Source of the DNA: Anadara kagoshimensis
Lineage: Eukaryota > Mollusca > Bivalvia > Arcoida > Arcidae
Direction of reading: 5' to 3'
DNA length: 64,000 bases
Assembly (NCBI GenBank): GCA_021292105.1
Contig: CM037871.1
Span: 33,806,997 to 33,870,996, forward strand
Part shown: positions 14,573 to 63,272 of the stretch, one piece after another
How the letters are laid out: the number at the start of each line of letters is the position of its first letter
How positions within the stretch are numbered: the first letter of the stretch is position 1
Position numbers and translations under genes: made by a program
Notes under the pieces: generated by a model
What the model was told of the DNA's origin: nothing
The model's input: the letters and a program-made list of their open reading frames with translations, nothing else
Databases searched by the model: none

Positions 14573-16227
14573 GTTTATCATAAACTTAAATTTTACTATT
14601 TAAAACAAATACATGCATTAAATACAGACATTTTTCAAGAATATAACACAAAATTCAATTAGACTATTTAGACTAGTTTAAATGCATTCCACCAAATAAT
14701 CCCATTAGCATAATATTCCTTCGCGGCGACCTTTATTTATAAGGCTAAGGAAGCCATCGAATAATTTAATTGATATAGTGATTAGATCTATTTGTTCTGA
14801 GTAGCCGGTCTGATATCGACATCAGACCGGTGATACGGCTTTTTCGACCGGGCGCGTGCGTTCGGTGATATGGATGACGTCATTTTAGCCGTATCTTAGC
14901 GTGCAGAAACTACGTATTTACTACATAGTATATATAAATAACATATATTTGTTATAGCTCCATCTTAAAATATGGTTTGTATTTTCATAACGCAGCTATT
15001 TAAAAAAAAACGATTAAATTACAGTTCAATTCTGTTTTCGTGATGCTTCATATAAAATACACGCTACATTTGCAACAGACTTACATCAGTGTTAGAGTTT
15101 ACTTCTTCTAAAATTCCCCGTTTCCTGCAATTGTGGTTATTTATTTATTATAAATTGGTAACAGGCACATTTACCATTAAGTAGTACTCATTACTGTGGT
15201 GGAAGTTCACGTGTAAGTTACCAGTTTTACTTTGGTTTGGGAATGTCATGTGGACATGGAATTATATATAATTTGTGTTAAATATTTATGAAAAAACTTT
15301 TGAATTGCAATTTATTATGTTAAAGTTTTAAAATAATTTTTTTTTTAAAAAGTGACGATAGTATATTTAAAGTTTTTGTTTTAAATTTGGTTTCAGAACT
15401 ACCGGGTAGTGGTTAAGAAACTCCGGTGCAAATAAGTTTTCATGCAGCATAAAGTCCCTGAATTAATTAACTCATATGAAAAACACAGTACATATTTGAT
15501 AGACTTGCACTGGAGTGGAAATATAGAAATGTTTAACTACAAACAGTAATTGAATCGTTATTCATCTTCTGTTTACCCAGTTGCAGATCTGTAGCGCAAG
15601 AACAAAGATATAACAAATTGATCTGCTATTCAGAGATCAGATACATTGAACTGAGTTATTTCTTTTGTCAAAATGCTTCAAATTATTTCTAGTTCATAAC
15701 GTAAAAGTTAACGATAATCATTTGTATATTTGCTTTCCAATTTGTCCCCCGACACATCACAAGGTTTGATTGCATAAAGGTTGTAAGTCAAAAACATCAT
15801 CGCAAAGAAGAATATTTTAATGAAACATTTGTGTTGACTTTCTGGTATTGTGAGCATTCACAATCTTCTTCAGATCGCGTAACTCAAGATATGATCATTT
15901 CTACAATATTTAATATTAGTTAAGTTTGATTTAAAAGCAGCTGCGAATGTAATACATTTTAAAACTTAGAAAAACTTACTGCTCAACTGAAATTATTTGC
16001 AAAATAGCCCTGAAGAAAATGTTCATTATAAATCAAACTAATACTGAATTTAATTAAATTTAATTTCTACTTAATTACTGTTTCAGTGCATCCTTTAACT
16101 TTAATGTAATTAAATTAATTTCTGAGGAATTTTCAAATGCAATCTCAATATTAATTCAAACATGATCCATTGTTGTTTTGAATTCAAATTTAACATAAAT
16201 TACATATTATACCAGTTTAAATTTTAC

Positions 16228-16273
16228 AGTACTAGACGGCCGTTTTGGTATACAATTCCTCATCAGTAGTGCT
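16228..16273 (-). ncRNA. Hammerhead ribozyme motif, decayed
   Basis: Minus strand: stem I and CTGATGA are kept, but GAAA has become AAAA, stem II pairs badly and stem I has one change. The flanking repeat runs from about 16203 to 16380. Confidence 0.68.
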
Positions 16274-16529
16274 TGGACCAAAATTATGAAACCAAAATTG
16301 TTATCAAGATGTCAAAAAGATACCCAAAGGACGAAAATATATTTTACCAAATTTAGCTTAGGAAATCTTATTATTCACTTGTCCTCAGTAACCACTGTTT
16401 GAAGGCCTTTTAACTTTTTACTTACATATTTAGAGTATATTTTATATTTCTTATACTCGATTGTCCATTGGTGGTTTTTATAGAATGGTTTCACTGAATC
16501 TATTTAATCCAAAGGAATATATTTGATGT

Positions 16530-19469: not shown

Positions 19470-19590
19470 GAATGTAGCTAGCAAAACAAGAGGTGCCTAC
19501 CATTCCAGAGCTTTCGGCCTCATTTCCCTGGTGGAAATTCACGTGTTTAACTTACATGTAACGGTTCCTCTTGTAATCCATACAATTCTT
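19470..19590 (+). repeat. Tail repeat, 5' two thirds, immediately before a hammerhead repeat
   Basis: GTAGCTAGCAAAACAAGAGG through GGTGGAAATTCACGTGTTTA, then a short gap, then the hammerhead repeat at about 19605. Confidence 0.65.
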
Positions 19591-19622
19591 TTAAATAATT
19601 TTGGTTTCATAATTTTGGTCCA

Positions 19623-19668
19623 AGCACTACTGATGAGGAATTGTATTCCGAAACGGCCGTCTAGTGCT
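19623..19668 (+). ncRNA. Hammerhead ribozyme motif, type I, core intact
   Basis: AGCACTA and TAGTGCT form a perfect 7-bp stem I. CTGATGA, stem II GGAAT/ATTCC over TGT, GAAA, the CGGCCG stem III and GTC are all present without a change, so this copy equals the family consensus. A tail repeat lies just upstream (19470-19590) and another just downstream (19765-19920). Confidence 0.87.
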
Positions 19669-19764
19669 GTAAATATAAAACTGGTATAATATGTAATTTA
19701 AACTCATTTAATATGGTATAATATGTAATTTAAACTAATTTAAACTTTCATTCTCAATTTTTAT

Positions 19765-20466: not shown

Positions 20467-21390
20467 ATCAAAAACAAACATTCTAATCCATGTCCGAATC
20501 ACAATCAATAAGCAAAGTAAAAACTTTGGAACCGACAAGTAATGTTAGACACGTGGACTTCCACCAGGGAAGTGAGGCCAGGTGCTCTGGAAGGGTAAGC
20601 ACCTCCTGTTTATCTAGCTACACCCGTCACGTGTGTAATCAAAATTGTGTGAAAGGAACATGGAACTATGAACTATGAGACGTCAATTATATCCAGGACA
20701 ATCCTGGACACAGAGACATCAAACTTATCAACAATACTGTGATGACGGCCTTAAAACTTTTTGAGGGCGTTGATAAGCCTAGGCTTGCAATATCCATGAG
20801 TCAACAATTTATTTGAAAGCAGCCTACTTCGTTGTACAAAGTCCCCGTTGTGGGAACAAGCTCTAACCATAGCGTATTAATTGGGAAACAAATACACCAT
20901 AAGCAGGAGAAGCAGGTATATTGCTGCATAAAAAAGGAAAGTTGACAATAGAAAAATTGAAGTCATCACGTTTGTCATAAAATTTCAAATGTAGCCTTTC
21001 GTCTGCGTCATAATTCAGGTATAAGTCTAAATGTGAAGCAGAACTTGAGGAATCAGTCGTGTTTTTTATTTCAAGCTCACTAGGATAGATGACATTTACA
21101 CAGTCTCCAAATTTAGGATTGTTAAGAGACAGAACGTCATCTATATATCTGTATGTTGAGTTTACAATGCTTTTAATGCTTAAATTCTGCTTCATAAGAA
21201 TAAAGAAACAAATCAGCAAGCAATGGTGCACAGTTTGTACCCATTGATATACCGATTGTTTGCTGAAAAACTATATTACCAAACACAACAAATATGATAT
21301 CTATCAAAAACTCGAACATTCTGTTGATGGTATCTTCAGTATATTTTTGTTTGGAATCCGTATGATGCTTGACAAAATAACCAAATCCCT
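20467..21390 (-). pseudogene. Penelope-like reverse transcriptase fragment with catalytic block, plus tail
   Basis: A 122-codon open stretch (21231-20863, minus) reads TYRYIDDVLSLNN, the catalytic Y-x-D-D region of a reverse transcriptase, then YDKRDDFNF and AYGVFVSQLIRY. Upstream (to about 21390) lies a frame-broken stretch matching the preceding RT block; downstream is a complete tail repeat ending near 20467. Truncated at its 5' end, so not autonomous. Same family as the copy at 57420-58960. Confidence 0.82.
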
Positions 21391-28020: not shown

Positions 28021-28196
28021 CAAGCATCTTTGTGTATAATAAATTTGCTGCAAGTTAAAACTTAAAATTCCTCGAAAACTAAGGCATACTGCCTCATGCA
28101 AAGTATTTCCGTACCTAAATTTGGTAAAATGTATTTTGGTCCTTTGGTATCGTTTCAACATCTTGAAAACAATTTTGGTTTTATTATTTTGGTTCA

Positions 28197-28242
28197 AGCA
28201 CTACTGATGTGGAATTGTATTCCGAAATGGCCGTCTAGTGTT
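28197..28242 (+). ncRNA. Hammerhead ribozyme motif, decayed (core change)
   Basis: Stem I, stem II and GTC are retained, but the core reads CTGATGT instead of CTGATGA and GAAAC has become GAAAT. Probably inactive. The surrounding repeat (about 28050-28275) follows directly on a tail repeat (27890-28020), which suggests the order tail then ribozyme repeat within one larger element. Confidence 0.72.
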
Positions 28243-29894
28243 GTAAAATTAAAACTTGCATAATATGTAATATATTATACGTTATACCTTTTTGTCCGCG
28301 CCATAAATATAGGTGTTTTGTTTTATAAATGAACTGCGATAAAAGCTAAAACTACGATGGATGCTATGTTTAATTATACATAACAAACAGAGAGGAAGAA
28401 ATAGAATAAGTAATAGGATAGATTTATTATTTTATCCGTATTAAAGCTGTTTTCGTTCCGAGCTTTTGTTTTATGCATGCCTGATAAAACTAGCTTTTAG
28501 TTAACTATTTTAATGGGTACATGTCAAGCGTGTCACGACGTTTGAGTCAATTAGGATTCCTTTGATCTGGTGGAGATGCCGCTTCTCAAAGATTTTATTT
28601 ACAGAGTATCCATCACTATCTTGATTTTCTCGCTAAAATTTCCATTTAAAACTAATGCTTTTCTGCTACAATATCTTTTATTTAACATCATTAGTCGAGT
28701 GTTATTTGTTTTATCACAATTTATGTTTTATTTTGTTTCACTTATCGGAACAAAACTCCGGAATGATTCTATGTCCAGGTAGTCAATTACGTACAGGTGA
28801 TTTTACAGTAAAGCTAGTGTGATTGCTATTCGTCACCAGAAATCTCTGGGGAGTACTTGGAATATAAAGTGTGTTTTCTACAGACAAATAAAATATTTAT
28901 CTATATTGTCATTTTAACATTGTCCAACAGGGACAAAATTGGCATTTAAAAGCTTGTATGTCATCACTGTTAACTGTGAGTAAACGTTACGCATTACCCT
29001 CAGAAAACAGCCGGCAATACCTGTTCTTATAATTAATTACGGTAATGACACTTTTATAAATATGACCAACAGAAATCAAATGTATGGATGGCGTTGTGAG
29101 CCACGTGGCCTTGTCTCTGGAGTAATCAGACAATGGAAAAAATAAGAAATTAACTCTATAATTGCTTATCAAAATCATGCAGAGATATAAGCAATAAGCA
29201 ATGATTAAATGAGACAATTCGACAGTAAAAATCTCAGACTATTCAGACTTACTGTAGAAAATTTGTCATGAGAAATCCTAAGGGGGGAGAAAAATTTCAA
29301 ATTACCATTCCTAAAACTTATCTGATAGTGGAAGAAATCAATTCATTTCAATATGTCAGCACTTGACTCAAATTAAAAGGCTTTGAGTTAAAATATGCCT
29401 TTTTTGAATCATCAATAATGAAAACCTGATACAAACCAACTTTATCATTCAGATAATGTGACAAAATCATCCAATTACCCTTAAAATTTAACAATTTTGA
29501 CAATTTAACCATATGGCGAGTTTAAATGATATCAAATGCAATTTACATAATCCGAAAAGGCGTCAAGTTACAAACCTTACATTTGTGAATTAATTTTATG
29601 CTTGAAAACATTCACATATAATCCTTCAATTTTGTGTAAAAACGTAAAATTAACCGTTAAATTAACCTGTAAACTTTCTTGAATTTAAAGGGAAATTTAA
29701 ATACCTTAAGAGATTTTTTATTGACTAAACTGTATTTTAAACTAAAATTATTTTATCTGATGTTTAAATAGGGTTGTTTTTTAAAACTGCACTTGTTTAG
29801 TTAAGTTAACATAATTTTATAATATCACAGTTTGCTGTTTTATGGAGGACATGTAGTTCAACAACACTGATCAACATAAACCTCCTGCTTTAAA

Positions 29895-30220
29895 GACCAC
29901 CACGGTAGCTAAGTTGGTAGAGTGCTCGCCCCGTAAATGGGAGGTCGTGGGTGCGAACCCCGGATGGGTCTGACCCAAGACTTGAAAGTGCGTAGTGACT
30001 GTTCTTTTGCCAAGCAATCGGCATTACTAAATGAAAGTCACGGTTCTTTCGGATGATTGAAATAAAACGAAATCTCTTTGTACTGGCCTGTCACGATAAA
30101 GAACCAGGCACATGCAAAATTCCTACACCTTCGTCTATATCTGACGACGTCTCGATATAAGTGAAATGATCTTGACGGGACATTGAACACCATTACTCAG
30201 CTCAACTCAACTCAACTCAA
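29895..30220 (+). mobile_element. tRNA-derived SINE with 10-bp target duplication
   Basis: tRNA-like head with A box (GTAGCTAAGTTGG) and B box (GGTGCGAACCC), a conserved body (AGTGACTGTTCTTTTGCCAA), a tail with CTCGATATAAGTGAAATGAT, and (CTCAA)n at the end. A perfect CTGCTTTAAA lies on both sides (29885-29894 and 30221-30230). Not a tRNA gene: the cloverleaf is imperfect and the body follows. Confidence 0.9.
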
Positions 30221-30515: not shown

Positions 30516-30663
30516 AGGATATTTATTATTTTTACTCATTAATTAAACCAATGCTGTTTATTGTAATAAGCACATTATTTAATCATTCTGAAATTCCTGA
30601 AAAATTAAGGTATGCTCCCTCATTTGCATGAAAAGTGTTTCCTTAGCTAAAGTTGGTAAAATA

Positions 30664-31717
30664 CAGTCATTCCACAAAGAAACGGCTTACGACACCCCCT
30701 AATTTCCAAAAATAAACGCCACTCTTAATACAATAATAGTAAGAGCAAGAATACAAATAAAACAAAATGCATTTCATTTAGAAGTGATTTTCTTAGAATC
30801 GGTGACATCGCTTGGTGTGGACACAAGCTAATTTACAGCTAGTATTTTGTAGAAGCACCTTTAGCTTGCATCACAGCTCTAACACGATGAGGCAGTGTAC
30901 AATACACATGTTGATTTCCTGATTTCTTGATCTGATACCAGTAACTCTTAACAGACTGTCAAAGCTCTGTTGACGATATCGGGCCATCCACGGCTACTTT
31001 CTCAACCTTACCCTGTGACAATGATATAAAAAGAATCATGATTAGTCGTCAAACACATGAACGCTTTCGCAGTTCTTGTACGCAAATTACATTTAAAAAT
31101 CGTGCCCAAGTTCTTGTCTGAAAAATTATTTCATATCATTGTGTAGGTGTACTCAAGAAGGTTACTGACACTTTGAATGTCACGGCTAGCATACAAATAT
31201 TATAAATGATTTACAAATTCAGTAAAAATGCTTCGTTTTCCTCGAAAAACAATTCATACTTCAGCAAGATCTTGTTGTCGATTCATCTACATTGACTCAG
31301 TAGTTTCTTGAAACGATTAACATTTCTATCCTTGATCGGCCTAGAATTTCTCTTTATATGAGTCAAATTGAAAATTGTGGGACTCCCTTAAAATGAAAGT
31401 AGCCGAAAATAGTCCAAAATCGTCAACAGAGTCTGTTAAGAGACACTGATATTAGATCAAGAAAACAGAAAGACAAAATTTGTATTTCACATAACCTCAT
31501 CGTGTTAGAGCTGGCATTTAAGTAACAAGTGCGTCTACAAAATACCAGCTGTAAATTAGCTTGTATTGATACCAAATAATGTCACAAAATCTAAGTAAAT
31601 CACTTTTAAATGAAACACATTTCGTTTTATTTGTATGTTCGTTCTTACCATTATTGTTTTATGGGTGACGTTTCTTCATGGAAATTAGGGGGCAACGTTT
31701 CTCTGTGAAATGATCTG
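30664..31717. mobile_element. Tc1/mariner derivative with ~330-bp inverted arms
   Basis: Starts TA/CAGTCATTCCACAAAG and ends TGTGAAATGATCTG/TA, so TIRs with a TA duplication. The left arm (to about 31000) and right arm (from about 31400) are inverted copies, each holding the 3' end of a transposase gene. The middle, about 31010-31400, shows no recognisable transposase. It splits a hammerhead repeat. Confidence 0.82.
30839..31003 (-). pseudogene. Tc1/mariner transposase, C-terminal fragment
   Basis: Minus strand reads QSVKSYWYQIKKSG and then LPHRVRAVMQAKGASTKY followed by a stop at 30839-30841. This is the standard C-terminal end of Tc1/mariner transposases (M-P-x-R-x-x-A-V-I-x-A-K-G-G-x-T-K-Y). 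One in-frame stop (TGA, probably from a Trp codon) precedes it. The catalytic DDE residues are not in this fragment. A second, more decayed copy lies inverted at about 31420-31560. Confidence 0.82.
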
Positions 31718-31784
31718 TATATATTTGTCCTTTGGATATTTTTTCAACATCTTGAAAAAAAAATGGTTTTACAATTTTGATCAA

Positions 31785-31830
31785 AGCACTACTTATGGGG
31801 AATTGTATTGCGAAACGGCCGTCTAGTGCT
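31785..31830 (+). ncRNA. Hammerhead ribozyme motif, decayed
   Basis: Stem I AGCACTA/TAGTGCT is perfect and GAAAC..GTC is kept, but the first core segment reads CTTATGG and stem II has a mismatch. Expected to be inactive. The host repeat is split by a Tc1/mariner derivative (30664-31717); its left part is at about 30585-30663. Confidence 0.7.
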
Positions 31831-32084
31831 GTAAAATTAAAACTAGTATAATATATAATCAAAACAATCAAAATGTACATGACATATATATTTTACTTTT
31901 AAACGGTAAAAGTAGAACTACATTTTTAAATTGTTCCAGAATTACCTCTAAATATTTACATTTTAAGACCAGTATGCTCCAGACATCGTGTAGAATAAGT
32001 AACATTATGATACGATTGGCTAAATGCAGGGCCTTGGACTTAAGTGCGAGATCACTGATCACAATGTCTCTCATCGCTTAGGTT

Positions 32085-34420: not shown

Positions 34421-34736
34421 CCCAGTTTCACAAACATTCTTTAATACCAGTCTTAATTTTACAGCACTAGACGGTCGTTTCAGAATACAATTCCTCATTA
34501 TTAGTGTTGAAAAGAAGCCCAAAGGACCAAAATATAAATTAAGATTTTCCTTAAATTTAGAAAATTATTTGGCAATCTCTGATAGAACTATGGATGATCA
34601 TGTTTAAAGGAACTAAATACAGATGTTAAAAGCTTGAATTAATATTCAAATGGCACCTAACATTCGCCGAATTATTAGGATTTCAAATTTGCCATATTTA
34701 ATTTTAGGTATAAGGAATGATTGTGAAACCGGGACC
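34421..34736. mobile_element. Foldback MITE interrupted by a hammerhead repeat
   Basis: Ends CCCAGTTTCACAAACATTC and GGAATGATTGTGAAACCGGG as in 30256-30515. Between about 34447 and 34546 it carries a minus-strand hammerhead repeat, after which the MITE resumes at AAGATTTTCCTTAAATTTAG. Confidence 0.78.
34463..34508 (-). ncRNA. Hammerhead ribozyme motif, decayed, nested in a MITE
   Basis: Minus strand: GAAAC..GTC and the 3' strand of stem I are retained, but CTGATGA has become ATAATGA. The repeat copy (about 34447-34546) interrupts a foldback MITE (34421-34736). Confidence 0.65.
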
Positions 34737-35633: not shown

Positions 35634-38600
35634 CTAAAATATAACATCAATAGAACATATGATTACAAATCAAACACACACACATACAGGCACAATCCCA
35701 AAACTAAAACTTTGAAAACTGACAAAATTAAAAACTTGACCTTCCTATTAGGGGTTAATATCGGATGATCTGAAAGGCAAATATTACCAATGCTCGCTCC
35801 ATATATAGGGGTGATTCTAACCAAGATCTGACAATTGTTGTTTCTTTTCGCAAAGCACTCCGCATTCAGAGATGAAAGTCATCGTATACTTCGGAATAGA
35901 CCTTAAAACCCGATAGCCCGTGTCACGGTAGGTTTCGCTCATTAAATACCCCCTTTCTGCGTATTGCCATAAGCGCATTGCAAACGTCAAAATCTCTGTC
36001 ACTTATATCTGGTGAAATAATCAAAAACAAACATACTAACCCATGTCTGAATCACAATCCAGAAGCAAAGTAAAAACTTTGGAACTGACAAGTTAGGTTA
36101 GATACCTGAACTTCCACCAGGGAAGTGATGCCGGGTGCTCCGGAAGGGTAGGCACCTCCTGTTTGGCTAGCTACAACCGCCACGTGTGTATAAATAAAAT
36201 ATTTTTGACTTGGACGTTAACCCCATTTGATCAATCATTGACTAGTACCACATTTGTTTTATGCCTTGCACTCTTCATCTGAGACGATACTCTTTACCAA
36301 ATAAAAATTAAGTATATGTCGAATGAGCAAGAAATGCTTATGCCTAAACATTTGAAGTGTGGATTTTTTTAATTAGTCTAGAAATTCCCATACATAAAAA
36401 AGGTTTCATTGAGTTAATGCTGCATTGACATGTCTTGTAAGTTGTTAGGCAACACGAAATTCATCACCAAATAAAAATTCAAATGTTCATGCTTAAACGA
36501 TTACAATTGATTAAACTATAGCTGAGCATTTCCCATATGAAAATATGCAAAAATCACTCAAGGTCAAAATGCAATAATTCGATTCTAAAAAAACTCAAAG
36601 TAAAAATGCAATTAAATCATGTTGTTCTATGTTCCCTTATAGAGAAGCACTGATCCTGATACCGGTAATAAATCTCCCGATAGTACTTCTAACTCTAAAT
36701 CATATATATTAATTACCTTTTAATTTCTGTTGTAAGGAATATCTTACTTGTCGTTCTTTTTCTAGTTCGTTATTCATTGATTCTGTAACAGATAAAATAC
36801 ATAGATAAAGACTTACTTCTTTTTCTTCACTGTATCCGTTTGTACAAATTGTTAGATAACCGACAAATAAATGTATAACACTTCACTTCATAAACCAATG
36901 CAGCAAGATCACAAATAACAAACAAACATACCAGTTCATGTTCAAATCACAATAAAAAAAATAAAATGACAAATTTATCAAGGCCCTCAAAAAGTTTTAT
37001 GGCCGTCATCACAGTATTGTTGACAAGTTTGACGTATCTGTGTCCAGGATTGCCCTGGAGATTTTTGACGTCTCATAGTTCCATGTTCCTTTCACACAAT
37101 TTTGATTACACACGTGGCGGGTGTAGCTAGCTAAACAGGAGGTGCTTACCCTTCCGGAGCACCCGGCCTCACTTCCCTGGTGGAAGTTCACGTGTATCAC
37201 CTAACTTGTCAGTTCTAAAGTTTTTACTATGCTTCTGGATTGTGATTCGGATATGGATTAGTATGTTTGTTTTTGGATAGTTATACACATCAACTTCTAC
37301 CATAAAAGTAAGACCTTGTGCTCCGGAATGAAAAGAAAATGGTAAAACTATGAGACAAAACAAATATTCAGGATAATTTCGGATAAAGCGAGACATAATA
37401 TTTATCAATAATATTGTGATAAAAGCAATACAAGAGCCTTGACAAATATAGGCGTGAAACATCCCCAAGTCAACAATTCATTTGTGAGCAGTTTGCTTCC
37501 TTGTATAAAATTCCGATCTCTACAATAACATAAACCTATAAATCAACTTTATTTGCCATGATAACGATCCTACAATTAATGCTTGTCATTTTATTTCAAT
37601 AGTTTTAAATTCTAAGTGTATGCATTTCATACAACGGCAATAACACTTGACGTAAGTCCTACGGACATAAAATTATTTTAGTCCCAATAACTAGTAATTT
37701 ACTATTTAAAAATCTTTTATATTTTACCTTTCATTAATTCTATATTTCTTTCCACAAATTTTCTTGTTTCAATTTCTTGTTTTAACTGTTCTTGTAATTG
37801 TTCTAAAAAGATAAGGAAATGTTATTATTTATAATCCCTCTTTCCTTGACAAAAAATAGATATCAAGATTTAAAAAGTTTGCTTGAAAACTGTATCGCTG
37901 AGTAATTTGCGATAAATATTATTATGATTACACCATTCTATATTTTTTTTAGAACATGTCGGTTCAGAATCAAAATCAAATCCAAAGCTTTTAAAATTAA
38001 CACCCTTTTTCATCCTGCCTTGAAGGGAGATTCCCACCGAATAGTAATGATATAATCAGATGCCAATGTTTGACCTAAGAGAGTACAGTCAAACCTGTCT
38101 ATAAGGGCCACCTAAGGGAACTAGTAAACGTGGCCTTAATAGGTATGTAGAAAACCCCTGAACTCAGTGAACCAGTGGTTTTCTGTTGTGTTTTTTTCCC
38201 TTAGCCACAGGTTCCAGTTATTTGAGGCGCCGGAGACTCGCCTATCACCACTGTCACTCAGCTGCAATTGCATTTCCAGGGCCACCAGGCGTGGAGGTGT
38301 GACATGTGTTTCGCTGGCAGAACCTTTTTGAAACTGTTAGCATCACTCAAGATTTTATAAGGTGAAACCTAGTGAAATTGGAAACGCCCCTCAAGACCGT
38401 ACCATCATTTGACCCTACATCAAACACACAATACAATGTAAATGTTAAAACCAGTCAAAAGAGACATACAGAACAAGACAGAACATACTAGGGTCACTAG
38501 TTAAAAAATCATCAACTTTGGACGGGCAATGAAGTAAATGTCTAGCAGTGTGATAATATAGTACCATACCACTTTTTATAACATCAGGGCTCGGTTTCAC

Positions 38601-41600
38601 AATCATTTATTAACGTAAGATTTTCCTTAACTTAAATCTGACAAATTAAAAACCTTTATAATTGTTAAGATATAAGGAAAGTTAACATGCCATTTTAAAG
38701 ATTTTATCAAGCTTATGACATCTGCATTGAGCTTTGACAAAAAAATTTATTGTAGTTCAAAAAAGAGCTTTTTAAAATTTGCTAAATTTAAGTTAAGAAA
38801 AAATCTTAGTTAAGGAATGATTGTGAAATCGGAGCCTGGTTCTTAAATATTATGTACTATATTTACCTTTTGTGTATTCGTTGATGTCTTCTTTATTCAA
38901 TGATGACCCATTAAAACAAAGATCTGAAATAGCAAGACATAGTTGTATTAGTCGTTAAAATCTCGATTAAACACTTGGTGGGTGTAGCTGGAGCTCTGAA
39001 GCACCATGCCAACCTTCCTCCCTATTGGAAATCCGTGTGTTTTACTTAAGTTCTCAGTTCTCGTGTTTCTTTCATTTTCATTTTTTCCTAAACACGTGGT
39101 GGGTGTAGCTGGAGCTCTGAAGCACCATGCCAACCTTCCTCCCTATTGGAAATCCGTGTGTTTTACTTAAGTTCTCAGTTCTCGTGTTTCTTTCATTTTC
39201 ATTTTTTTCCTAAACACGTGGTGGGTGTAGCTGGAGCTCTGAAGCACCATGCCAACCTTCCTCCCTATTGGAAGTCCGTGTGTTTTACTTAAGTTCTCAT
39301 TTCCCGTGTTTCTTTCATTTTCATTTTTTTTTCTTAAACACGTGGTGGATGTAGCTGGAGCTCTGAAGCACCATGCCAACCTTCCTCCCTATTGGAAAGT
39401 CCGTGTGTTTTACTTAAGTTCTCAGTTCCCGTGTTTCTTTCATTTTCATTTTTTCTTAAACACGTGGTGGATGTAGCTGGAGCTCTGAAGCACCATGCCA
39501 AACTCCCTCCCTATTGGAAAGTCCGTGTGTTTTGCTTAAGTTCTCATTTCCCGTGTTTCTTTCATTTTCATTTTTTTTCTTAAACACGTGGTGGATGTAG
39601 CTGGAGCTCTGAAGCACCATGCCAAACTTCCTCCCTATTGGAAGTCCGTGTGTTTTACTTAAGTTCTCAGTTCCCGTGTTTCTTTCATTTTCATTTTTTC
39701 TTAAACACGTGGTGGATGTAGCTGGAGCTCTGAAGCACCATGCCAAACTCCCTCCCTATTGGAAAGTCCGTGTGTTTTACTTAAGTTCGCAGTTCTCGTG
39801 TTCCTTTCATTTTCATTTTTTTAAACACGTGGCGGTTGTAGTTATATAAACATGAACTGCTTACCCTTCCAGGGCGCCTTGACTCATTTCTTTGGTGGAC
39901 GTTCGTGTGAGTAACTTTATTTGTCAATTTTCAAAGTTTTTTTTCTTGGCTTTAGCTATAGGTTGTGATATGGACATGTTGTTTTTGACATTTATATAAT
40001 GTAAATGAAAAGGGTTTTATATAAAGTTTTGCCTAATGTCAGTACATGTATCATGGTATCAATGGTTTAAAAAAAAGAATGGGATATAGAAGGCCTGAAA
40101 ATCTTAAACTTCTTCTTGAAATAATACTCATGGCTAAACCTAAATTTGCTTATTTTTTCATGGTTTCAATGCCTGTCTTTGAGTTTATGTTTTGCTTTGT
40201 AATACTGTGTGTGACTATGATTTATCAAACATTTTATTTCCATATTCATTTGTCTACCGTATACAGTTCTATTTTTTCTTGCTATTACTTGTCATCTTAA
40301 GTTCGGAAAGCTAATAATTAATATTAAAGGTTAAAAATAGAATAACAGTGTCTGGCAGTTCGTATTTTCAAAACCATTGAATAAAATATATGCTCATATA
40401 TTTACTGACAGACGTCTGGGGAAACGCAATTACATGTTTTTCCTGGAATTAATCAAATTGCATTGTGTCATTGTATGTTGTATAATAATTATTTATGAAC
40501 CAATTGATGGAGGCCCACTAGAGTCAAATGTATGTATTCTATGGATGTTTGCGAGGCATTATTCATTATGAATTCTATATCTGTTCTTTGAATCATGAAT
40601 AAGCTACAATGTAATTATTACAGTCAAACTGTCTTAGAAGGACACCAGTAACCAGTGGCCTTTATGAGTAGGTGGCTTTTATATACAAGTTTAAGCAATA
40701 TGAATAAAGAACCATTGGATACAATTTCATTGGCCTTTATAAGCAGGTGGTCCTTATATAAAGGTGGCCTTTAAGGCAGGTTGGACTGTATTAACTATGT
40801 TTTAATTTTGCATTGTTAGACGGTCGTTTCGGAATAAATTTCACATTATTAGTGCTCATACCAAAAATTGTGGGCATCCATATTTTTTTAAAATGTTAAA
40901 ATCAGCAAAAAGAAAGATCAAACATTGAAGCTAATCATAACGAAGATATATACAACAGTGGTTACTAAGCAAGCGCAACGAATTTTTTATTTTAATATAA
41001 ATTATATTATCATGAAATGGTAGTTAATTGAATGAGCGTTTAATTATAAAACAAGTTCGGGTAAAACACACTTTCGAATGTCGAAAAAACCGTATTCTTG
41101 TTGTAATGGCATGAGACTGGTGTCTTGCTTCGATTTTAAATTAAAAACAATCATACCGATATATTTTCAAATCACAATCCTAATTTAAAAGTAAAGTCTT
41201 AAAGGTAGTGCAATTTTCAGAATACTGACATACTAAAAAATAAAAAAGACTTACTGAGTGTTGATGGAATGCGAAGCGTTTCCTTTTTAGAGCTGAAGTT
41301 TTCGTTTACATCTCTTTCCTCAGTTTTATTTTCGCTTTTGTGTTCGCTTTCATTATCATTGTTGAACTTGGATTCGTGTTCTGAAAAAATAAATAAATAT
41401 TGAATTTTAAACTATCAATATAACAATTCAATCAGCCTTTTATTGTGTCATGCGCATGCGCTGATGTATTTGAAATATGATCAAAAAAAGAATTTTCAGA
41501 AACTTTGACAAAAATTTTATTAATGGATATCAGAAAATTTGCGGTTGACTCTAAAGACATTTGTGTAATCTTGAACATTTTTTTAAAATCATCAATAGTT

Positions 41601-41739: not shown

Positions 41740-44655
41740 GCTAGGTATCATGTTGTTTGTTGTAAAATATAGATAGACTTTTGTAATCATTCGAGTTTCA
41801 CTCATATTCGATGAACAATACCAGTTAAACTGTGCATGTTAACTCTCATAATTCGTAATTTCGAATCAATAAAATCCATCATTTTCAAGAATTTTTAATC
41901 CACTATTTGGTGTTCGTCCAAAGTCGTGGGTTGAAAATAAATCTACATAAAAGACGATTGTAATGTTAGTTACAACTATGGTAATCAAAAACAAACATAC
42001 TAATCCATATCCGAACACAATCCAGAAGCAAAGTAAAAACTTTGGAACTGACAATTAGGTTAGACACGTGAATTTCCACCAGGGAAGTGAGTCCGGGTGC
42101 TCCGGAAGGTAAGCACCTCCTGTTTAGCTAGCTATACCCGCCACGTGTGTAATCAAAATTGTGTGAAAGGAACATGAACATGAGACGTCAAAAATATCCA
42201 GGGCAATCCTGGACACAGAGACATCAAACTTGTCAACAATAAAGTACATCAAATTTAATTGCACTGAATTTTTATATTATTCTCAAACTGCTTTTACTGT
42301 CGAAATATGCGACACTTAAGCTTGTTGTTTGAAGTAACATTTATGTAATCTTACCTCCCGTTTCATGTTCGGAATCTAAATTTTCTTCCTGGAATAAAAA
42401 AAATCATTAAGTTTTAAATTTCTATTTTATTTGTAGTTTTATTTCAGCGAGCTTTGGTAGGCTGAACCATGTTCTACGGTTGCCAATCAAATCTTGAGTT
42501 CAGTTAATGACTTTAGTTTTATATAAATCATCAACTATCAAATTGACACTATTATTTTCTTTCTGGGTTTCTTGTTGCAGTTTAACATAACTTTTCATGA
42601 GAATTAATATTGTAAAATACCTAATATATGTTTCCTTGATTCTGAAACATTAGTCAATCGTTATTAACGCCTGTTTACATTTCTAGACAAACAACTTTTA
42701 CCTGTTCGCTTGACCTTTCAGTTGGACTATTCATACATGGCGATCCACCTGGTATATGGGTAGTTTTAGATTCGTAATTAATACATAATCAATGCATGGT
42801 CCTAAAGATGAAATAAACACATTTGTTCCCTAAATATGAATGTTCTATCCATAATAAATATCTAAAAATAAATAAAGGTCAAGCGGACAGGTCAACGTTG
42901 TTTGCCTATATATAAATACCCAGATGGTTTATGGTTGCATGGTGTTATATATGCCTTCGGGATGCTTTCTAGTTTATATTCAAAATGGAGGACCAAATTA
43001 ATACATATCCAATTCAACTAGATATTTATTAACCCATTTATAGTTTATTACAGAAATCCTTTATTCGGTTTAGAATATCTGTTCTTTATTAAAAATTGTG
43101 ATTTAAGGATGGGCTTTTTTATATTCATTTACCTTTTTGCTCAGATGTGTTTTGTCTTCATCCTTGACACGCTCTTTTTTCTTATCTGATTCTCCTGTTT
43201 TACTGTTTTCTGATTCATTCTGTGAGTTTTTAGATGTCTCGTCATGTTCTACATCGTTCTCGTCACGAATTGATATATTGTCTCTATCACTATATTCATC
43301 GATAATGTTAATTTCTTCGCTTTCATCTTCAGACTCGTCGTGGTTGTCATTGTCAATCTGCGACTTTTTGTCACTTTTATTTTTCCCTACAAGACGAAAA
43401 GCTGAAAATCTTTCTTATTTTCGCTACGAGATGGACTACTTCCGGGTGATGACGTAACAGAGTCATTTTCATGTTCATACATTTCTGAATCATTGTGATT
43501 TTTCATTTCGTTGAACGAATAACAGGAACCGTTTACCCCGTTCCTTGATTGTCTGTTAAGAGGGTTATTCCAAAACATATTGTATGTTGGTAAAATACTC
43601 TGAAGACCCCAAGCTGTGTTTGTCGTATGATGACTGCCTTTCGATGCATCGATGCTACCATCTTTTGCAAATGGGAACCCGATCCCAAATGGAGGCGAGT
43701 GGTTTAACTGTCCAAACTGATATGGCTTTCCCGGAAATGATAACATGGGAAAAGGTGGATACTGGGATTGATACACGGGTTTTGCAACATCCGGTTCCTC
43801 ATACTCAAAACGAGACTTTTTGGTTTGTTCCGCTTCTGGTCCATGTGATGATCTGGAAACTTGAGAAATGATTCGTTTTCTACTCCCTCCATTAAACATG
43901 GCTTTCACATCTTCCCACATTTGCAAAAGTCATCATTTTCAGAGCTACTTGAAAGTTTCAAATGACGGCGCCATGAATTAAAGTTAGCAGCATCAGGATG
44001 ATTGTACTTTGCGTTTGGAGTTCGATGAAAATGAAAAATGAACTTGTTTGGTGAAAAGTACATATTACAATAGGTGCATTTTATACATTTTGCCCTTGAA
44101 CTGTTGTATCTGGACGGCTCAAAGTTGCCCTGGCAACCCCAACCACAGTCATGCTGGACTTCAAAGCAAAAGTTTTCTGGTAACTTTGGTGGTAGTGGGT
44201 CTTCTAGAAATGATTTCACAAGTCGTTCAGCTTCCCGTTTGGTAATCATGCCACATCTCCTGGATGAAATAGGCATTGCGCCTGCGCGCCTTAATATTTC
44301 TAATTGGACTGGTGTACATTGAACACATGTGATACCAAGAGCAACCCGCCTATTGTGAATTTCGTTATAACTGTAACTCTTCAAAAGTGTATTTGATATC
44401 TGAGCCAAGCAAAGTCTCTCTTTACCATCAATAAATAAACAAACAATCTGTACACCGTGAAGTGTTACTGTTGACACTTGGTTTTGACGAAGAGTATAGG
44501 ACCCGTATGTAGCAGGCGTTTTACATCCATTTGATGGTGGTGTTCTTGGAGGGATTTCCAAAACTGGTGCGGATGTGCTAGCTGGAGAACATGGTTGCTT
44601 CAGTATTTTCTTGCAATGTTGGAGACATTGTTCCGTTATCTGTGCTTATTTCACT
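35539..44655 (-). CDS. SKOR: SKI-family transcriptional corepressor (SKOR/CORL/Fussel type), multi-exon gene, 5' end unresolved
   Basis: Nuclear corepressor of the SKI/SNO/DAC family; vertebrate SKOR proteins bind SMADs and LBX1 and repress transcription in neurons (family knowledge). Seen here, in order: a SKI/SNO/DAC domain with the near-invariant run HNRRVALGITCVQC and the run MPISSRRCGMITKREAE; a SMAD4-binding domain with RYNSSRAKCIKC, YFSPNKFIFH and FNSWRRHLKL; WEDVKAMFNGGSRKR just after it, a SKOR hallmark; an acidic Ser/Glu-rich linker; a coiled coil; and a C-terminus reading EAHDALHNFSCKML, very like vertebrate SKOR. Seven exons are visible. The first junction is phase 0 and the other five are phase 1. 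The visible protein is about 630 residues, shorter than vertebrate SKOR1/2 (about 950-1000). Two 1-base deletions break the large exon. No in-frame ATG precedes the DAC domain in it, so at least one upstream exon is expected. Family assignment is very secure; the exact 5' structure is not. Confidence 0.95.
35788..36014 (+). mobile_element. SINE, left part, interrupted by a tail repeat
   Basis: GCTCGCTCCATATATAGGGG, AAAGCACTCCGCATTCAGAG and CCCGTGTCACG are SINE-body words, decayed. It resumes after the inserted tail repeat at about 36190. Confidence 0.65.
36017..36188 (-). repeat. Solo tail repeat inserted into a SINE
   Basis: It runs from AATCAAAAACAAACATACTA to CCGCCACGTGTGT. Flanking sequence on both sides is SINE: the left part at 35790-36014 and the tail TATTTTTGACTTGGACGTTA at 36196-36245. 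So this unit of about 170 bp moved, or was left behind, as a discrete piece. Confidence 0.75.
36190..36245 (+). mobile_element. SINE tail, right part
   Basis: AAATATTTTTGACTTGGACG then TTAACCCCATTTGATC: the terminal part of the SINE interrupted at 36014. Confidence 0.65.
36717..36782 (-). CDS. SKOR: SKOR exon, coiled coil (66 bp)
   Basis: Minus-strand borders CTGTTACAG and AAAG|GTAATT, phase 1 to phase 1. It encodes NELEKERQVRYSLQQKLK, close to the N-E-L-x-Q-E-R-K-A-R-Y-x-x-Q-Q-K-L-K segment of vertebrate SKOR. It is followed directly, in phase, by the terminal exon. Confidence 0.92.
36960..37275 (+). repeat. RT 3' end plus tail repeat, in a SKOR intron
   Basis: Well-preserved copy: GGCCGTCATCACAGTATTG..., then CACGTGGCGGGTGTAGCTAG..., ending TAGTATGTTTGTTTTTG. 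Short frames on its minus strand are repeat artefacts. It abuts an inverted, more decayed copy at 37285-37525, making a tail-to-tail pair in the intron between the exons at 37728 and 36717. Confidence 0.8.
37285..37525 (-). repeat. RT 3' end plus tail repeat, inverted partner, decayed
   Basis: Contains CTTGTGCTCCGGAATG, then ATTTATCAATAATATTGTGA and CAAGTCAACAATTCATTTGTG, in the minus orientation of the same family. Together with 36960-37275 it occupies over half of this SKOR intron. Confidence 0.7.
37728..37802 (-). CDS. SKOR: SKOR exon, coiled coil (75 bp)
   Basis: Minus-strand borders CTTTTTAG and AAAG|GTAAAA, phase 1 to phase 1. It encodes EQLQEQLKQEIETRKFVERN followed by IELMK, a heptad-rich helix matching the start of the SKOR coil in spacing and charge. 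The next conserved segment of the coil was not found in the following intron. Confidence 0.9.
38086..38150 (+). mobile_element. Pogo-like MITE fragment in a SKOR intron
   Basis: TA, CAGTCAAACCTGTC, TATAAGGGCCACC, then AACGTGGCCTTAATAGG; shortened internally. Confidence 0.65.
38588..38836. mobile_element. Foldback MITE in a SKOR intron
   Basis: GGCTCGGTTTCACAATCATT ... AATGATTGTGAAATCGGAGC with long inverted arms; ends 30 bp from the exon at 38867. Confidence 0.8.
38867..38923 (-). CDS. SKOR: SKOR exon, start of coiled coil (57 bp)
   Basis: Minus-strand borders CTATTTCAG and AAAG|GTAAAT, phase 1 to phase 1. It encodes a run ending KEDINEYTK, which lines up with the D-M-T-K-D-E-L start of the vertebrate SKOR C-terminal coiled coil as I remember it. 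It sits between a 122-bp tandem array (upstream in the transcript) and a MITE (downstream). Confidence 0.87.
38970..39823. repeat. 122-bp tandem array (7 units) in a SKOR intron, most units with CACGTG
   Basis: Units begin with AACACGTGGTGG (first unit AACACTTGG) at 38970, 39091, 39213, 39337, 39459, 39583 and 39704, with a spacing of 120-124 bp. They are over 90% alike by eye. Short open frames across it on both strands are repeat artefacts. The unit is a derivative of the dispersed tail repeat: a complete but divergent tail copy abuts the array at 39824. Canonical CACGTG E-boxes are present in units 2-7. It lies between the 41255-41380 and 38867-38923 exons. Confidence 0.9.
39824..39990 (+). 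repeat. Tail repeat bordering the 122-bp array
   Basis: ACACGTGGCGGTTGTAGTTA, CTTACCCTTCCAGGGCGCC, GGACGTTCGTGTGAGTAACT and TGATATGGACATGTTG. Its first third is continuous with the last array unit, which shows the array arose from this repeat. Confidence 0.7.
40621..40788 (-). mobile_element. Pogo-like TA MITE, full length, in a SKOR intron
   Basis: TA, CAGTCAAACTGTC ... GGCAGGTTGGACTG, TA; 168 bp, in the opposite orientation to the others by its internal blocks. It lies beside a decayed hammerhead repeat. Confidence 0.8.
40812..40856 (-). ncRNA. Hammerhead ribozyme motif, strongly decayed, in a SKOR intron
   Basis: Minus strand, so sense to SKOR: GAAAC..GTC survives, but the first core segment reads ATAATGT and the 3' strand of stem I is lost (TAACAAT). 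It would not be expected to cut the SKOR pre-mRNA. Confidence 0.58.
41255..41380 (-). CDS. SKOR: SKOR exon, acidic/charged linker (126 bp)
   Basis: Bordered by TTTTTTCAG and CTCA|GTAAGT on the minus strand. It is open through 42 codons in the phase set by the 34-bp exon (phase 1 in, phase 1 out). The sequence is rich in Asn, Glu, Ser and Lys and ends ETLRIPSTL. Both splice sites are strong. This linker is poorly conserved between phyla, so phase and borders carry the call. Confidence 0.85.
41980..42245 (-). repeat. Tail repeat with adjoining RT 3' sequence, in a SKOR intron
   Basis: A clear copy from AATCAAAAACAAACATACTA through CCACCAGGGAAGTGAG and GCCACGTGTG to ACACAGAGACATCAAACTTG. High similarity to 20467-20740 suggests recent spread. 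Confidence 0.8.
42355..42388 (-). CDS. SKOR: SKOR exon, acidic linker (34 bp)
   Basis: A micro-sized exon flanked on the minus strand by ATTCCAG and GTAAGA. It starts in phase 0, matching the phase-0 donor at 43133, and ends in phase 1. It encodes EENLDSEHETG, continuing the acidic character of the preceding exon. Support comes from canonical borders and phase on both sides; the protein sequence itself is low-complexity. Confidence 0.82.
42684..42907. mobile_element. Same MITE as at 12121, in a SKOR intron
   Basis: Left AGACAAACAACTTTTACCTG, right AAGGTCAAGCGGACAGG then TCAACGTTGTTTGCCT. The inverted termini are about 35 bp. It lies between the large exon and the 34-bp exon. Confidence 0.75.
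43133..44655 (-). CDS. SKOR: SKOR large exon: DAC domain, SMAD4-binding domain, acidic region (two frame breaks)
   Basis: Read on the minus strand in three frames. Frame 1 runs from a TAA at 44646-44648 to a TGA at 43905-43907 and encodes the SKI/SNO/DAC domain (about 44490-44210) and the SMAD4-binding domain (about 44190-43945). Frame 2 is open from about 43926 to a TAG at 43387-43389 and resumes exactly where SKOR proteins continue, with WEDVKAMFNGG. Frame 3 is open from about 43410 to the splice donor AAG|GTAAAT at 43133 and encodes a Lys/Asp/Glu/Ser-rich stretch. Each shift has the same direction, and each can be healed by one extra T in a T4 run (near 43928 and near 43403). The upper boundary is uncertain. 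One candidate acceptor is TTTCAG at 44656-44661; another is GTTCTCCAG just before about 44582, which would avoid the stop and the missing ATG. Confidence 0.9.
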
Positions 44656-48908: not shown

Positions 48909-49483
48909 AAGAATACTGGTGAAAGCTAAATTATCAATCTTTTTTAGATTTATATATTTATAAGATTTTTTTTTAATAAGGACTTATTCACGTTTTAACT
49001 ACTTATCTGTTTCATCAATAATTTGTTAAATATTTAAGTTCTTGATTCCATCATATTTTTATTTTATTTTATAGAAAAAAATTGTTGACTTTAAATTGGA
49101 GAATGCGCATTGCACAGAGGCTTGTTAGTAGAAACTGACCAAATCCCTGGTCATACTGCATTGGTTATTATTGAACTAAACTGCTATTTTATTTTGCCTA
49201 ATATACTTGAAATAAAAAATATAAGTAATACCTACGTCAAAATATATTAATTTTATGCTATATTTAAATGGTATTCTCATATCTTAATTAATTGATTCAT
49301 TTTGACAGGATTTGGTAAAAATGACCATTTAAACTACATACAGTTGTACATATTTAATGATCAAAATAGTTATAAAATTCATTCAGTGTTCTTGTGTAAT
49401 TGTACACTGGTACAAATATTGTTTTGTTGCGTTTTATCTATTGATGTATGGTACATTTACTGTGCGGTATAATACGTACAATA

Positions 49484-49828
49484 ACCACTATGGTAGCTCA
49501 GTTGGTAGAGTGCTCGCTCCGTATGTTGAAAGTCGTGAGTTCGAACCCCGGTCGGGTCTGATCAAGACTTAAAATATGTAGTGACTGTTCTTTCACCAGG
49601 CACTCAGCATATAAAAATAAAGTCACGGGGTCCCACGGTGGAGACCTTAAAACCAATGTTCCGTGTCACGACCTGCTTTGTCTGTTAAAAAAACCACCCA
49701 CCCTTGCACATTGTCCCGCGCGCACTACTAGTAAAAATTTCGGTCACCTCACCTTTAGCTGCTGACGTCTCGATATAAGTGATATATTTTTGACTGGGAC
49801 GTAAAACCCGTTTAAACAACCAATCAAC
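49484..49828 (+). mobile_element. tRNA-derived SINE, older copy
   Basis: Head ACCACTATGGTAGCTCAGTT, B box GAGTTCGAACCCC, body AGTGACTGTTCTTTCACCAG, tail CTCGATATAAGTGATATATT then TTTGACTGGGACG. No clear target duplication. Confidence 0.85.
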
Positions 49829-60479: not shown

Positions 60480-62104
60480 CATGTGTTTAATTTTTTTTTA
60501 TTTTATTTGTTTATATCTATGGACTTCAATAACCGGGCTGTTTCGAGGACTTTTCTAACCTTCTACTAAACTTGGGAGCAAAATCAAATCTACTTGGTCT
60601 GATAAAATACCAAAAGAATTCTGTTATGATTATGTAAAATAGCAAACAAATTACCACAAAACATATGTAGCTGTATTGAATCTTTCACTTCAATTGACAT
60701 CGATCAGTTTTTAGTTCATCGACACAATAATCATTGTGTGTAACGTCAAGCAGAGTCAGTTGATGGTATGACCAATTACTTAAATTTGTTGAAATGAACA
60801 ATTCATCTAATTACAAAAAATACTGCAATCAAACAACATATTGTTCCATTGTCCATATGCTTGATCAAATTCAAGTATAGAATTTTTCACCAAATGAAGT
60901 ATTTCATCAAATTCTGTAAATCGCTATTTAAAACAGAAATCGTTGGTAGTCTAATGCAATAGATTCCTATATGCGGTTTGAGTAATCATCTCGTAATTAG
61001 CTACGATTAACTTAAGATTCATTTCGGGCGGACATATAACGGAAGAAATTGAATCGAAATAATATCAAAACCGGTAATTATAGTCAATTACACGGATTTA
61101 ACGGAAACATCACTTGCAGTATTGTTAGGTTGAATGGCTACTAAAAATGATCCCATATGTTTGAGTATGAATTTCAACAATCTTCATCAGTACTTGACAG
61201 GAAATCATGTATGATTACCGCTTTGCTTTTACAAATAATCACAAAGGACACCTATTTAAGGATTTCTCTGTTAGTTCCACAGACGTTAATTATAAGATCC
61301 GCGCAGATTCTTTACCCAAAGGGTGTTAATAAAACATTGTAAAATAAAGCTATCATTATGGCTCGAAGATTTTCAATGACATTTTGAATATTTCTGCATT
61401 CCAAAATATTTCAATAAGTTCTAATTAGTCCATTCTTGTAAATATGATATTAATTTCTTTGACATGAAAATGCAAAATACGCCAAAACAGAAATGAGTAT
61501 TAGAATATCTGGCATTTTATAATCTCGAAATATAAAAAAGCCTTTTATTTCGGATCCTAGATTTTCAACTACATTTTGAACGCCTTTAAATTTTAAAACA
61601 TGTTACTAATTAGTAAATATGATATTATAATTTTTTTTGTTTGACTGAAACTGCAGATTCTTGTATTGAATGCGCTATAACGAGTAAAAACTTTAAGATT
61701 TTTAACATTGTAAAATGTCTTGAAATGAAAAATTAATCCCGTAGAACTGCTCGTGGTTGTCATCTTCTCAAATAAACGATTTAGTTTCACCACAGTTTAG
61801 ATGAGCAAAACATGTTTAAAACCCTTTTTTTAAAAGTATCTAATTTTAATTGGTTAGAGCAGATAAAAAGATTAAAGCGCGATTTAACCGCTAATGCTTG
61901 AGATACTAGGAAAGTAACAGAATCCCTATTGTATCCAAACAAGTCCATGCCAAAAACTATAACCACTGATATAAATATCTGCTCGCGAATCGTATCTTAC
62001 TGCTAACAATATATTTTTACACCAGAAAATTGGTCCCGATTAAAATATATTTGCTGTCCATGTATTGTTATTATTTTTTATAATTCAACGTTCTATGTTC
62101 GTAT

Positions 62105-62423
62105 GACCACTGCGGTAGCTCAGTTGGTAGAGTGCTCGCTCCGTAGGTGGGAGGTCGTGGGTTCGATCCCCGACCGGGTCTGACCTTATACTTAAAAGTG
62201 GGTAGTGACTGTTCTTTTGCCAAGCACTCGGCATTACAAAATAAAAGTTACGGTTCCTTCGGATGGGAACTTAAACTAAGGTGGGATTGGCACGCTAAAG
62301 AACCCTGTTGAATAATGCCATTAGCGCAACGCACAGGCAATTTCTGCACCTTCGACTATATCTGGCGGCGTCTCGATATAAGTGAAATATTTTCGACTGG
62401 GACGTTAAACACCATTATTCAAC
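62105..62423 (+). mobile_element. tRNA-derived SINE with 13-bp target duplication
   Basis: GGTAGCTCAGTTGGTAGAGT (A box) and GTGGGTTCGATCCCC (B box), then the same body and tail as at 29895. Flanks TCTATGTTCGTAT (62092-62104) and TCTATGTTTGTAT (62424-62436) are the duplicated target with one difference, so a fairly recent insertion. Confidence 0.9.
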
Positions 62424-63034
62424 TCTATGTTTGTATGTTAAGGAAAGGAAGAAATATATTAAAATATGAAATAATGATTCTCTAATTTTTAATTTTGCGG
62501 AGATGAAAGTTAATTTGAGTAATTACTTAGTATTTTATTCATCATCAAAACATTAGTTTTCAATCTAAAAATGTACATTTGTATTTTCAACATGCAAAGA
62601 ACTAAAAAATTCTGTTTGATTTGCGATTGCAATTTAGTTAACTTTTAATTGCTAATGATACCCACATTTGCGTTTTAAACAACAAACAGAATTTCTCATT
62701 TGTTTACAATTTATCAAAGAGGGTGGCATCAGTTTTTCAATGAAATCTGGACGGGATGCAATTTATGTTTTTTTTTTGTCTACCCGTATGTATCGACTGA
62801 GTTGAATTGGTGATATTGAATATATAAACAAATGAAAACTGATGGAATAAACTGGCTTTTTTCTAAAAAAAAAAAAAAAAAAAAATATTAAAAAGTACAT
62901 AAAATAAAAGCAACATATTCATCTCAATTTGTTAGTATGTTGCAAAGATTGAAAAACAATTGAGATGACCTGTTGGTACTGTCATATACATTTTTTTTCA
63001 ATTTATCATAAAATACATTAAAAAAATGGTATTG

Positions 63035-63272
63035 TCTAAATTTCCTGCAAGTTAAAATTTGAAATTTTTCAAACACTAAGGTATACTCCCTTATGTAAAG
63101 TATTTTCTTAGCTTAAGGTAAAATATATTTTGGTCCTTTGGGTAGCTTTTCAACATCTTCAAAATAATTTTGGTTTCATAATTTTGGTCCAAGCACTACT
63201 GATGAGGGATTGTATTCCGAAACGGCCGTCTAGTGCTGTAAAATTAAAACTGGTATAATATGTAATATGACA
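63035..63272 (+). repeat. Best full copy of the hammerhead-bearing dispersed repeat (~225-240 bp)
   Basis: It begins near a TTTCCTGCAAGTTAAAATTT stretch, has an internal TTTTGGTCCTTTGGGTAGC block, then the ribozyme, and ends ACTGGTATAATATGTAAT. The same blocks in the same order are found at about 28050-28275 and, interrupted, at 30585-31860; other copies are shorter. No protein is encoded. Confidence 0.8.
63192..63237 (+). ncRNA. Hammerhead ribozyme motif, type I, core intact
   Basis: Stem I strands AGCACTA (63192-63198) and TAGTGCT (63231-63237) are perfectly complementary. Core CTGATGA is at 63199-63205, stem II GGGAT/ATTCC is closed over TGT (one G-U), then GAAA, a minimal stem III around CGGCCG, and GTC at 63228-63230. 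All residues usually required for hammerhead catalysis are present. Predicted cleavage is after C63230. It lies in a ~225-bp dispersed repeat (about 63035-63272). Activity is inferred from the motif. Confidence 0.85.

Follow-up and report, generated by a model that had tools for sequence, protein, structure and literature searches.

What does a hammerhead ribozyme do for a dispersed repeat in the genome of the bivalve Anadara kagoshimensis, and what copies that repeat? The question arises at positions 63192–63237 (+) of a 64-kb stretch of DNA, hereafter called the window, where the letters AGCACTA-CTGATGA-GGGAT-TGT-ATTCC-GAAA-CGGCCG-TC-TAGTGCT form a minimal type I hammerhead with cleavage predicted after C63230. 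The motif has the core CUGANGA / GAAA / NUH and three helices, with stem I open. Stem I has 7 bp (63192–63198 with 63231–63237), stem II has 5 bp (63206–63210 with 63214–63218), and stem III has 2 bp (A63222–T63229 and C63223–G63228) closing GGCC. An 8-nt palindrome, ACGGCCGU, runs across stem III, so that pairing between two copies is possible. The frame running across the motif has no protein relative.

Judged by its sequence motif, 63192–63237 is a genuine hammerhead and not a chance match. The core pattern with correct spacing occurs three times in the window (63199 and 19630 on the + strand, 11779 on the − strand) and in none of 100 shuffles. A descriptor that includes the stems finds the same three places, and in 5,000 simulated order-1 Markov windows it matched seven times in total, never with 7 + 5 bp; we therefore reject a chance origin. 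An earlier note on this DNA had named a hammerhead here and called chance unlikely; every letter of the motif is found at that position, and the shuffles and simulation agree with the second judgement. Stem III, given there as CGGCCG, is indeed very short, but it comes down to an A-U and a C-G pair. The note's compensated pairing in stem I did not hold up, with none of the 14 pairs double-changed among the nine window copies that have a full-length motif, and with paired cells at 88.8% in these copies versus 89.2% in shuffles.

Rfam reported no hammerhead in the window at gathering thresholds, and none on 2 kb with E up to 10. Given 71 nt alone, Hammerhead_1 (RF00163), whose consensus shares the short palindromic stem III, aligned over model positions 1–45 with 28.1 bits (E 1.1e-5), so the covariance check proposed in the earlier note yields an end-to-end match but stays under the gathering score of 34. 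A second window copy, at 19623–19668, scores equally. A covariance model made from the nine window motifs recovered all nine; its two extra matches (E 0.9 and 2.2) were taken as chance. An Rfam scan of 19 genomic loci (61 kb) likewise missed the family. The Rfam hammerhead model, at gathering level or on whole loci, thus overlooks an abundant ribozyme family.

Within the window the repeat is present in ten copies, all single, truncated and below one unit length, with a common 3' end near TATGTAAT and differing 5' extent. Nine of the ten have the full-length motif. The core and all 14 pairs are kept in two: c63 (63031–63266, +), a 5'-truncated unit that holds the hammerhead described above and spans unit positions 99 to ~338 up to the fixed 3' end TATGTAAT, and c19 (19587–19699, +; hammerhead 19623–19668), whose 46-nt motif equals the window majority. 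The core is also intact in c11 (11710–11973, −; hammerhead 11741–11786), where stem I is weakened, and in the short copy c13 (13468–13543, +; hammerhead 13468–13513), where the stems are impaired. It is changed in five motifs: c28 (28040–28271, +; hammerhead 28197–28242; A14T), c16 (16197–16369, −; hammerhead 16228–16273; G28A), c31 (30589–31859, +; hammerhead 31785–31830), c34 (34444–34536, −; hammerhead 34463–34508), which has an internal deletion, and the diverged c40 (40789–40901, −; hammerhead 40812–40856). The tenth copy, c10 (10829–10878, +), is a 3' fragment with the 3' part of the hammerhead only. The copies c34 and c40 have identical core changes (C8A, G10A) and are perhaps a dead subfamily. 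An inserted element at ~30665–31715, by eye a DNA element with inverted ends, splits c31.

Measured against the copies' own majority, divergence is 9.2% upstream of the motif, 7.5% within it and 6.0% in the tail, so old copies decay without special protection. The copy at 63192 had been called catalytically complete, which is right for its core and all 14 pairs but not for the insertion, which is solitary and 5'-truncated and hence itself unable to yield unit-length RNA. We regard c63 as a truncated and probably inert insertion whose ribozyme has not yet decayed. The repeat had further been seen both with and without reverse transcriptase (RT) remnants. A piece of an RT element, from a list merged by hand, does lie on the same strand and no more than 2 kb upstream of five of the ten copies (2.4 expected at random, P 0.066), but similarity between the RT pieces and the hammerhead repeats is not continuous and we do not read them as one element; a single element joining the two in the window was rejected on these grounds. 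The window also holds a tRNA-headed SINE-like repeat (62103–62425, +; pieces at 29895–30203, 49481–49820, 2–104 and 36189–36227) and an exon of a SKI-family transcriptional corepressor (43107–44645, −), of which the part at 43905–44645 has its best named match in Lottia (85%).

Copies elsewhere in the genome reveal the full unit. We searched the 1,115-Mb assembly (36 contigs) and scored the best 40 of 1,587 first-look candidates; all 40, the window itself included, match at 94–100% identity. The 39 best matches besides the window were all fetched, a sample that favours young, query-covering copies. The repeat unit is ~340 bp long with one hammerhead each, and two or three units stand head to tail in 18 of the 39 copies; beside these, L158 has an additional 26-nt remnant of another unit. 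In 20 of 21 junctions the step from one 3' end to the next measures 301–346 bp; in the remaining one (L175) the last unit is cut off. Insertion lengths range from 173 to 937 bp and exceed one unit in 17 of 39. All five units analysed have a GC content of 0.33–0.35 and a longest ATG frame of 22–66 aa. In reading the copies we noticed neither an LTR nor a primer-binding site or polypurine tract.

The ends of these insertions are asymmetric. The insertion ends at unit position 336–340 in 37 of 39 loci (the exceptions are 112 in L175 and 321 in L171), ~36 nt past the cleavage site. The two letters after position 336 are shared by most of the 37 (A by 35, then T by 32) and agreement fades beyond them, so the 3' end is fixed to ~1–2 nt. 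The 5' ends, by comparison, are scattered over unit positions 1–292 across the 39 loci. There is no target-site duplication signal in the 39 loci (mean shared word 2.23 versus 2.06 in the control). The 5' flanks are 73.8% AT, above the null range of 62.8–70.7%, and the 3' flanks, at 68.9%, fall inside the null. Twenty bystander copies in 225 kb around the focal copies are all below one unit; extrapolation from this non-random DNA gives a very rough copy number of ~99,000.

Units within an array differ by 3.8% versus 4.1% between arrays, and 11 of 200 matched samples were as low. Array units are thus barely more alike, so copying from one circle is not favoured over copying from a multimeric transcript. 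L150 and L179 have the same two-unit pattern at nearly equal lengths and are perhaps one duplicated locus. Upstream of the hammerhead, CpG sites in the units (L142–L180) change at 6.1% versus 2.6% for other sites, about twice the rate, as if methylated.

These features allow a comparison with known hammerhead elements. The earlier note had placed the repeat among the kinds found in Penelope-like elements (PLEs) and animal retrozymes, a placement that the genome copies support, and between the two they point to a retrozyme-type unit. As described for Mytilus galloprovincialis (PMC7229834), the mussel retrozyme likewise carries one type I hammerhead per unit without the usual loop-loop contacts, in head-to-tail units with low GC and no long shared ORF; its units are 350–390 bp versus ~340 bp here, and the ~5,000 hammerheads reported there are exceeded by our rough copy estimate. 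Unlike the mussel element, the one here has at most three units per array among the 39, has documented fixed 3' and ragged 5' ends and is not more self-paired than shuffles. Its unit may have sequence kinship to the mussel unit. Set against what defines animal non-LTR retrozymes, a hammerhead in each head-to-tail unit of ~150–450 bp is found in 18 of 39 genome copies, while none of the 10 window and 20 bystander copies exceeds one unit; all five units are non-coding with low GC. The exception is the self-paired circle: circularized, none of the five units is more self-paired than its shuffles (z −1.14 to 0.01). The literature, on the basis of predicted folds, calls retrozyme circles highly self-paired, and we know of no z-score threshold for this property.

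Minimal hammerheads of PLEs offer the other comparison. By the accounts in PMC7761336, PMC6155905 and PMC11167929, they resemble ours in a very short stem III, absent loop-loop contacts and a likely need for dimers, and also in an insertion 3' end that lies past the ribozyme with an apparent internal start of reverse transcription. They differ in that the unit here is without a PLE ORF, and the PLE copies that we read are without a hammerhead of their own.

Is the ribozyme intact where the family is young? Allowing up to 9 substitutions and excluding units that start beyond position 250, the 39 loci contain 52 full-length motifs. The core is intact in 39 of these, and 30 also keep all 14 pairs. 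At non-CpG sites, 1.6% of motif positions are changed versus 2.5% in the rest of the unit (Fisher P 0.012, relatedness ignored); within the motif the core is no better conserved than other positions (2.0% versus 1.8% changed). On its own, neither c63 nor c19 is predicted to fold as a hammerhead, with minimum free energies (MFE) of −14.2 and −13.4 kcal/mol versus −8.4 and −8.9 for the hammerhead. With two strands, the MFE fold of c19 is exactly a double hammerhead (−36.7); for c63 the double hammerhead reaches −35.7 versus −37.5 for the best fold, with a stem II probability of ~0.2. Dimer action is known for hammerheads with a weak stem III (PMC6155905, PMC7229834).

A non-coding unit would require a helper for reverse transcription, and the RT remnants of the window lead to a candidate. 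One decayed remnant lies at 20511–21270 (−); its best named match is from Tegillarca granosa (62%). A genome protein search with the RT relative P0130, in which the best 150 of 60,289 first-look candidates were scored, gave matches at the 76–77% identity level among those listed, two of them with a stop. The one frame examined, in L185, runs 1067 aa from stop to stop and contains both a GIY-YIG domain (aa 203–292, E 1.7e-4) and RVT_1 (aa 814–917, E 2e-4), the combination that marks a PLE; both domains fall under their Pfam gathering scores (22.2 against 22.6 bits and 21.6 against 29.6 bits). The N-terminal ~49 aa of the frame are encoded upstream of the DNA common to other copies. The window remnant is 95% identical to this frame over 99 aa (20863–21270). 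A PDB profile search with the RT gave no useful match, and none of 23 pattern matches among viral contigs was confirmed as an RT carrier.

In placing GIY-YIG before RT, in the ragged 5' and fixed 3' ends of its copies and in their head-to-tail arrangement, the L185 element resembles PLEs with an N-terminal GIY-YIG domain, and it is probably of the Naiad type. Its copies end at GTTTTTGAT in four of four compared and have ragged starts. We fetched 14 PLE starts chosen from 50 matches, ten more diverged and four close; in 13 of the 14, the PLE 3' end lies directly upstream of a 5' hairpin, and among complete starts this upstream 3' end is present in L189 and absent in L186. No hammerhead belonging to the PLE itself was found in the few copies read; this element is a candidate helper and not the hammerhead element itself. 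Three observations stand beside these. L188 has a decayed retrozyme array at 450–872, 650 bp upstream of a truncated PLE start. At G000:C4:52466340-52467434, a short array repeats the opening 79 nt of the PLE 5' query in ~125-bp steps. The window holds a tandem array of 122-bp period at 38967–39841 that by eye looks like the RT element's 3' region.

The link between the two elements is the hairpin and its distance from the 3' end. The hairpin of the retrozyme unit has the form CTGAG-CG-GATATCTC...GAGGATATC...CTCAG. It (TTAAACCC) begins 8 nt past the end of TATGTAAT in 16 of 21 junctions; the other spacings (L147, L154, L159, L163, L167) come from indels or alignment. In the PLE, the distance from 3' end to hairpin is exactly 8 nt in 11 of the 14 fetched starts; the gap is 0 in L196 and 12 in L197, and the PLE 3' end is absent in L195. 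L186, with no PLE 3' end upstream, is likewise without the 8-nt spacing. Unit positions 7–101 align with the PLE 5' region of L186, just after the junction, with a score of 28, against a best of 19 in 500 shuffles and 17 in 1,308 control stretches. Outside these positions there is no clear similarity to the PLE, whose 3' part scores 14 while shuffles reach 20.

Pairing in the hairpin shows covariation. In 13 sequences (11 retrozyme, 2 PLE) with the structure drawn by eye, double changes occur at 3 of 16 pairs, and none of 500 shuffles reaches either this count or the covariation score. RNAalifold, unprompted, returned the same outer stem, six middle pairs, an inner three-pair stem and the three double changes, differing from our drawing in the link from middle to inner stem. 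With 25 sequences (11 retrozyme, 14 PLE), 94.4% of cells pair, and the 31 double-changed cells exceed a shuffled mean of 12.6 and are reached in 0 of 500 shuffles; the double-changed pairs, 3 in number, do not exceed shuffles (306 of 500), and neither do the pair types. Because the double changes mostly split two sequence groups, they may represent few events. Folded singly, the PLE hairpin is stable, with a z of −2.4, and two retrozyme hairpins, at −0.03 and −0.74, are within chance. The matching hairpin, its covarying stems and its spacing suggest that this PLE is the helper.

We consider it likely that the hammerhead serves a retrozyme of the animal non-LTR kind as its processing ribozyme; this retrozyme would be a non-autonomous unit of ~340 nt without coding capacity, and we propose the following cycle for it. 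Multi-unit loci would be transcribed, and hammerheads of neighbouring units would cleave the transcript, probably acting as a double hammerhead joined by the palindromic stem III. A host ligase would circularize the unit-length RNA. The PLE RT would then bind the hairpin and, at a new place in the genome, start to copy from TATGTAAT, 8 nt upstream of the hairpin. Running backwards, sometimes for more than one round, and dropping off at random, it would leave insertions of one, two or three units, fixed at the 3' end and ragged at the 5' end. The motif, the family, the head-to-tail units, their two kinds of end and the hairpin with its spacing in the PLE are what we observe; cleavage, the circle, hairpin recognition and use of the PLE are steps that we infer.

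The proposal that the larger PLE may be what copies the retrozyme can be put in terms of template recognition. We lean, with some reserve, to the view that the retrozyme and the N-terminal-endonuclease PLE share a template-recognition element: ~53 nt that fold into a three-stem hairpin, 8 nt downstream from the point where reverse transcription starts. Lying beyond the 3' end that is copied, the hairpin could be presented only by a circular or head-to-tail RNA. There is precedent in the lizard Anolis, where an internal start of reverse transcription by a PLE is established and the needed RNA lies within the first 172 nt of the ORF (PMC11167929).

Three other explanations have to be weighed against this one. 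The template of the insertions might be linear multimeric RNA transcribed from older arrays and left uncut, with the hammerhead as a passenger and no circle. We hold this to be unlikely, yet it is the rival with most in its favour. Units of one array do not clearly resemble each other more than random units do, and insertions run through the cleavage site, which means that the template was not a cut linear unit. In addition, Anolis PLE RNA with a dead ribozyme matched the wild type in insertion in vitro (PMC11167929); the ribozyme is thus dispensable for lizard PLE insertion in vitro, which counts against a strict need for it. A passenger, however, accords poorly with 39 of 52 motifs being core-intact, with the lower rate of non-CpG change in the motif (P 0.012, relatedness ignored) and with mussel retrozymes of similar size being abundant circles (PMC7229834).

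It is improbable, in our judgement, that the repeat is instead the solo terminal part (a pseudo-LTR with tail) of a hammerhead-carrying PLE rather than a separate retrozyme. PLE pseudo-LTRs are reported to contain minimal hammerheads (PMC7761336), fixed 3' and ragged 5' ends are also PLE-like, and the hairpin region is common to unit and PLE. The units nevertheless stand head to tail at ~340 bp with no ORF between them, no PLE copy read has a hammerhead as its own part, and clear PLE similarity is confined to unit positions 7–101; a PLE ORF joined to the hammerhead repeat was not found in the window or the genome copies. We give very little credence to the remaining idea, an ordinary SINE-like element whose hammerhead shape is accidental or long dead. 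Core changes in five of the nine full-length window motifs and single-copy folds that are not hammerheads would suit it, but chance is excluded by simulation, the close genome copies are mostly core-intact, and Rfam found no tRNA-like match inside the arrays in 19 loci, its one such match lying outside the array in L179. The processing ribozyme of a retrozyme is the reading that we retain.

We also looked for relatives beyond the family. A search of phages for relatives outside the host genome gave no match, and the unit hairpin stretch occurs in no viral contig. A loose core pattern hits at least 120 stretches in viral contigs; as relatives these were rejected: among 126 matches in the fetched loci, a stem I or a stem II of 4 bp or more occurs in 19, and never both together. 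A tight pattern hits one stretch in viral contigs, judged by eye to be chance, and matches 12 prokaryote stretches by pattern. In 242 kb of fetched genome DNA, no other hammerhead type was found besides this family and an odd parse in L161. Separately, hammerhead-like motifs whose stem II has 4 bp and whose stem III is short recur in several viral contigs (L115, L023, L021, L007 and others), three of them in L115 and two in L023. Across L115, L023 and L021, one place only, in L023, scores with Rfam Hammerhead_1, at 28.8 bits and below gathering.

A retrozyme with a hammerhead is a known kind of element; the link to a helper is possibly new. For animal non-LTR retrozymes, a 2020 review (PMC7761336) states that there is no conserved motif that would reveal an autonomous helper. 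A literature search, which covered mostly work outside subscription journals, found no title naming a helper for an animal retrozyme. The shared hairpin and its 8-nt spacing offer such a motif, and with it the helper question would be open to compensatory mutation. If the proposal is true, it explains the worth of carrying a circle-making ribozyme and names the helper of an animal retrozyme.
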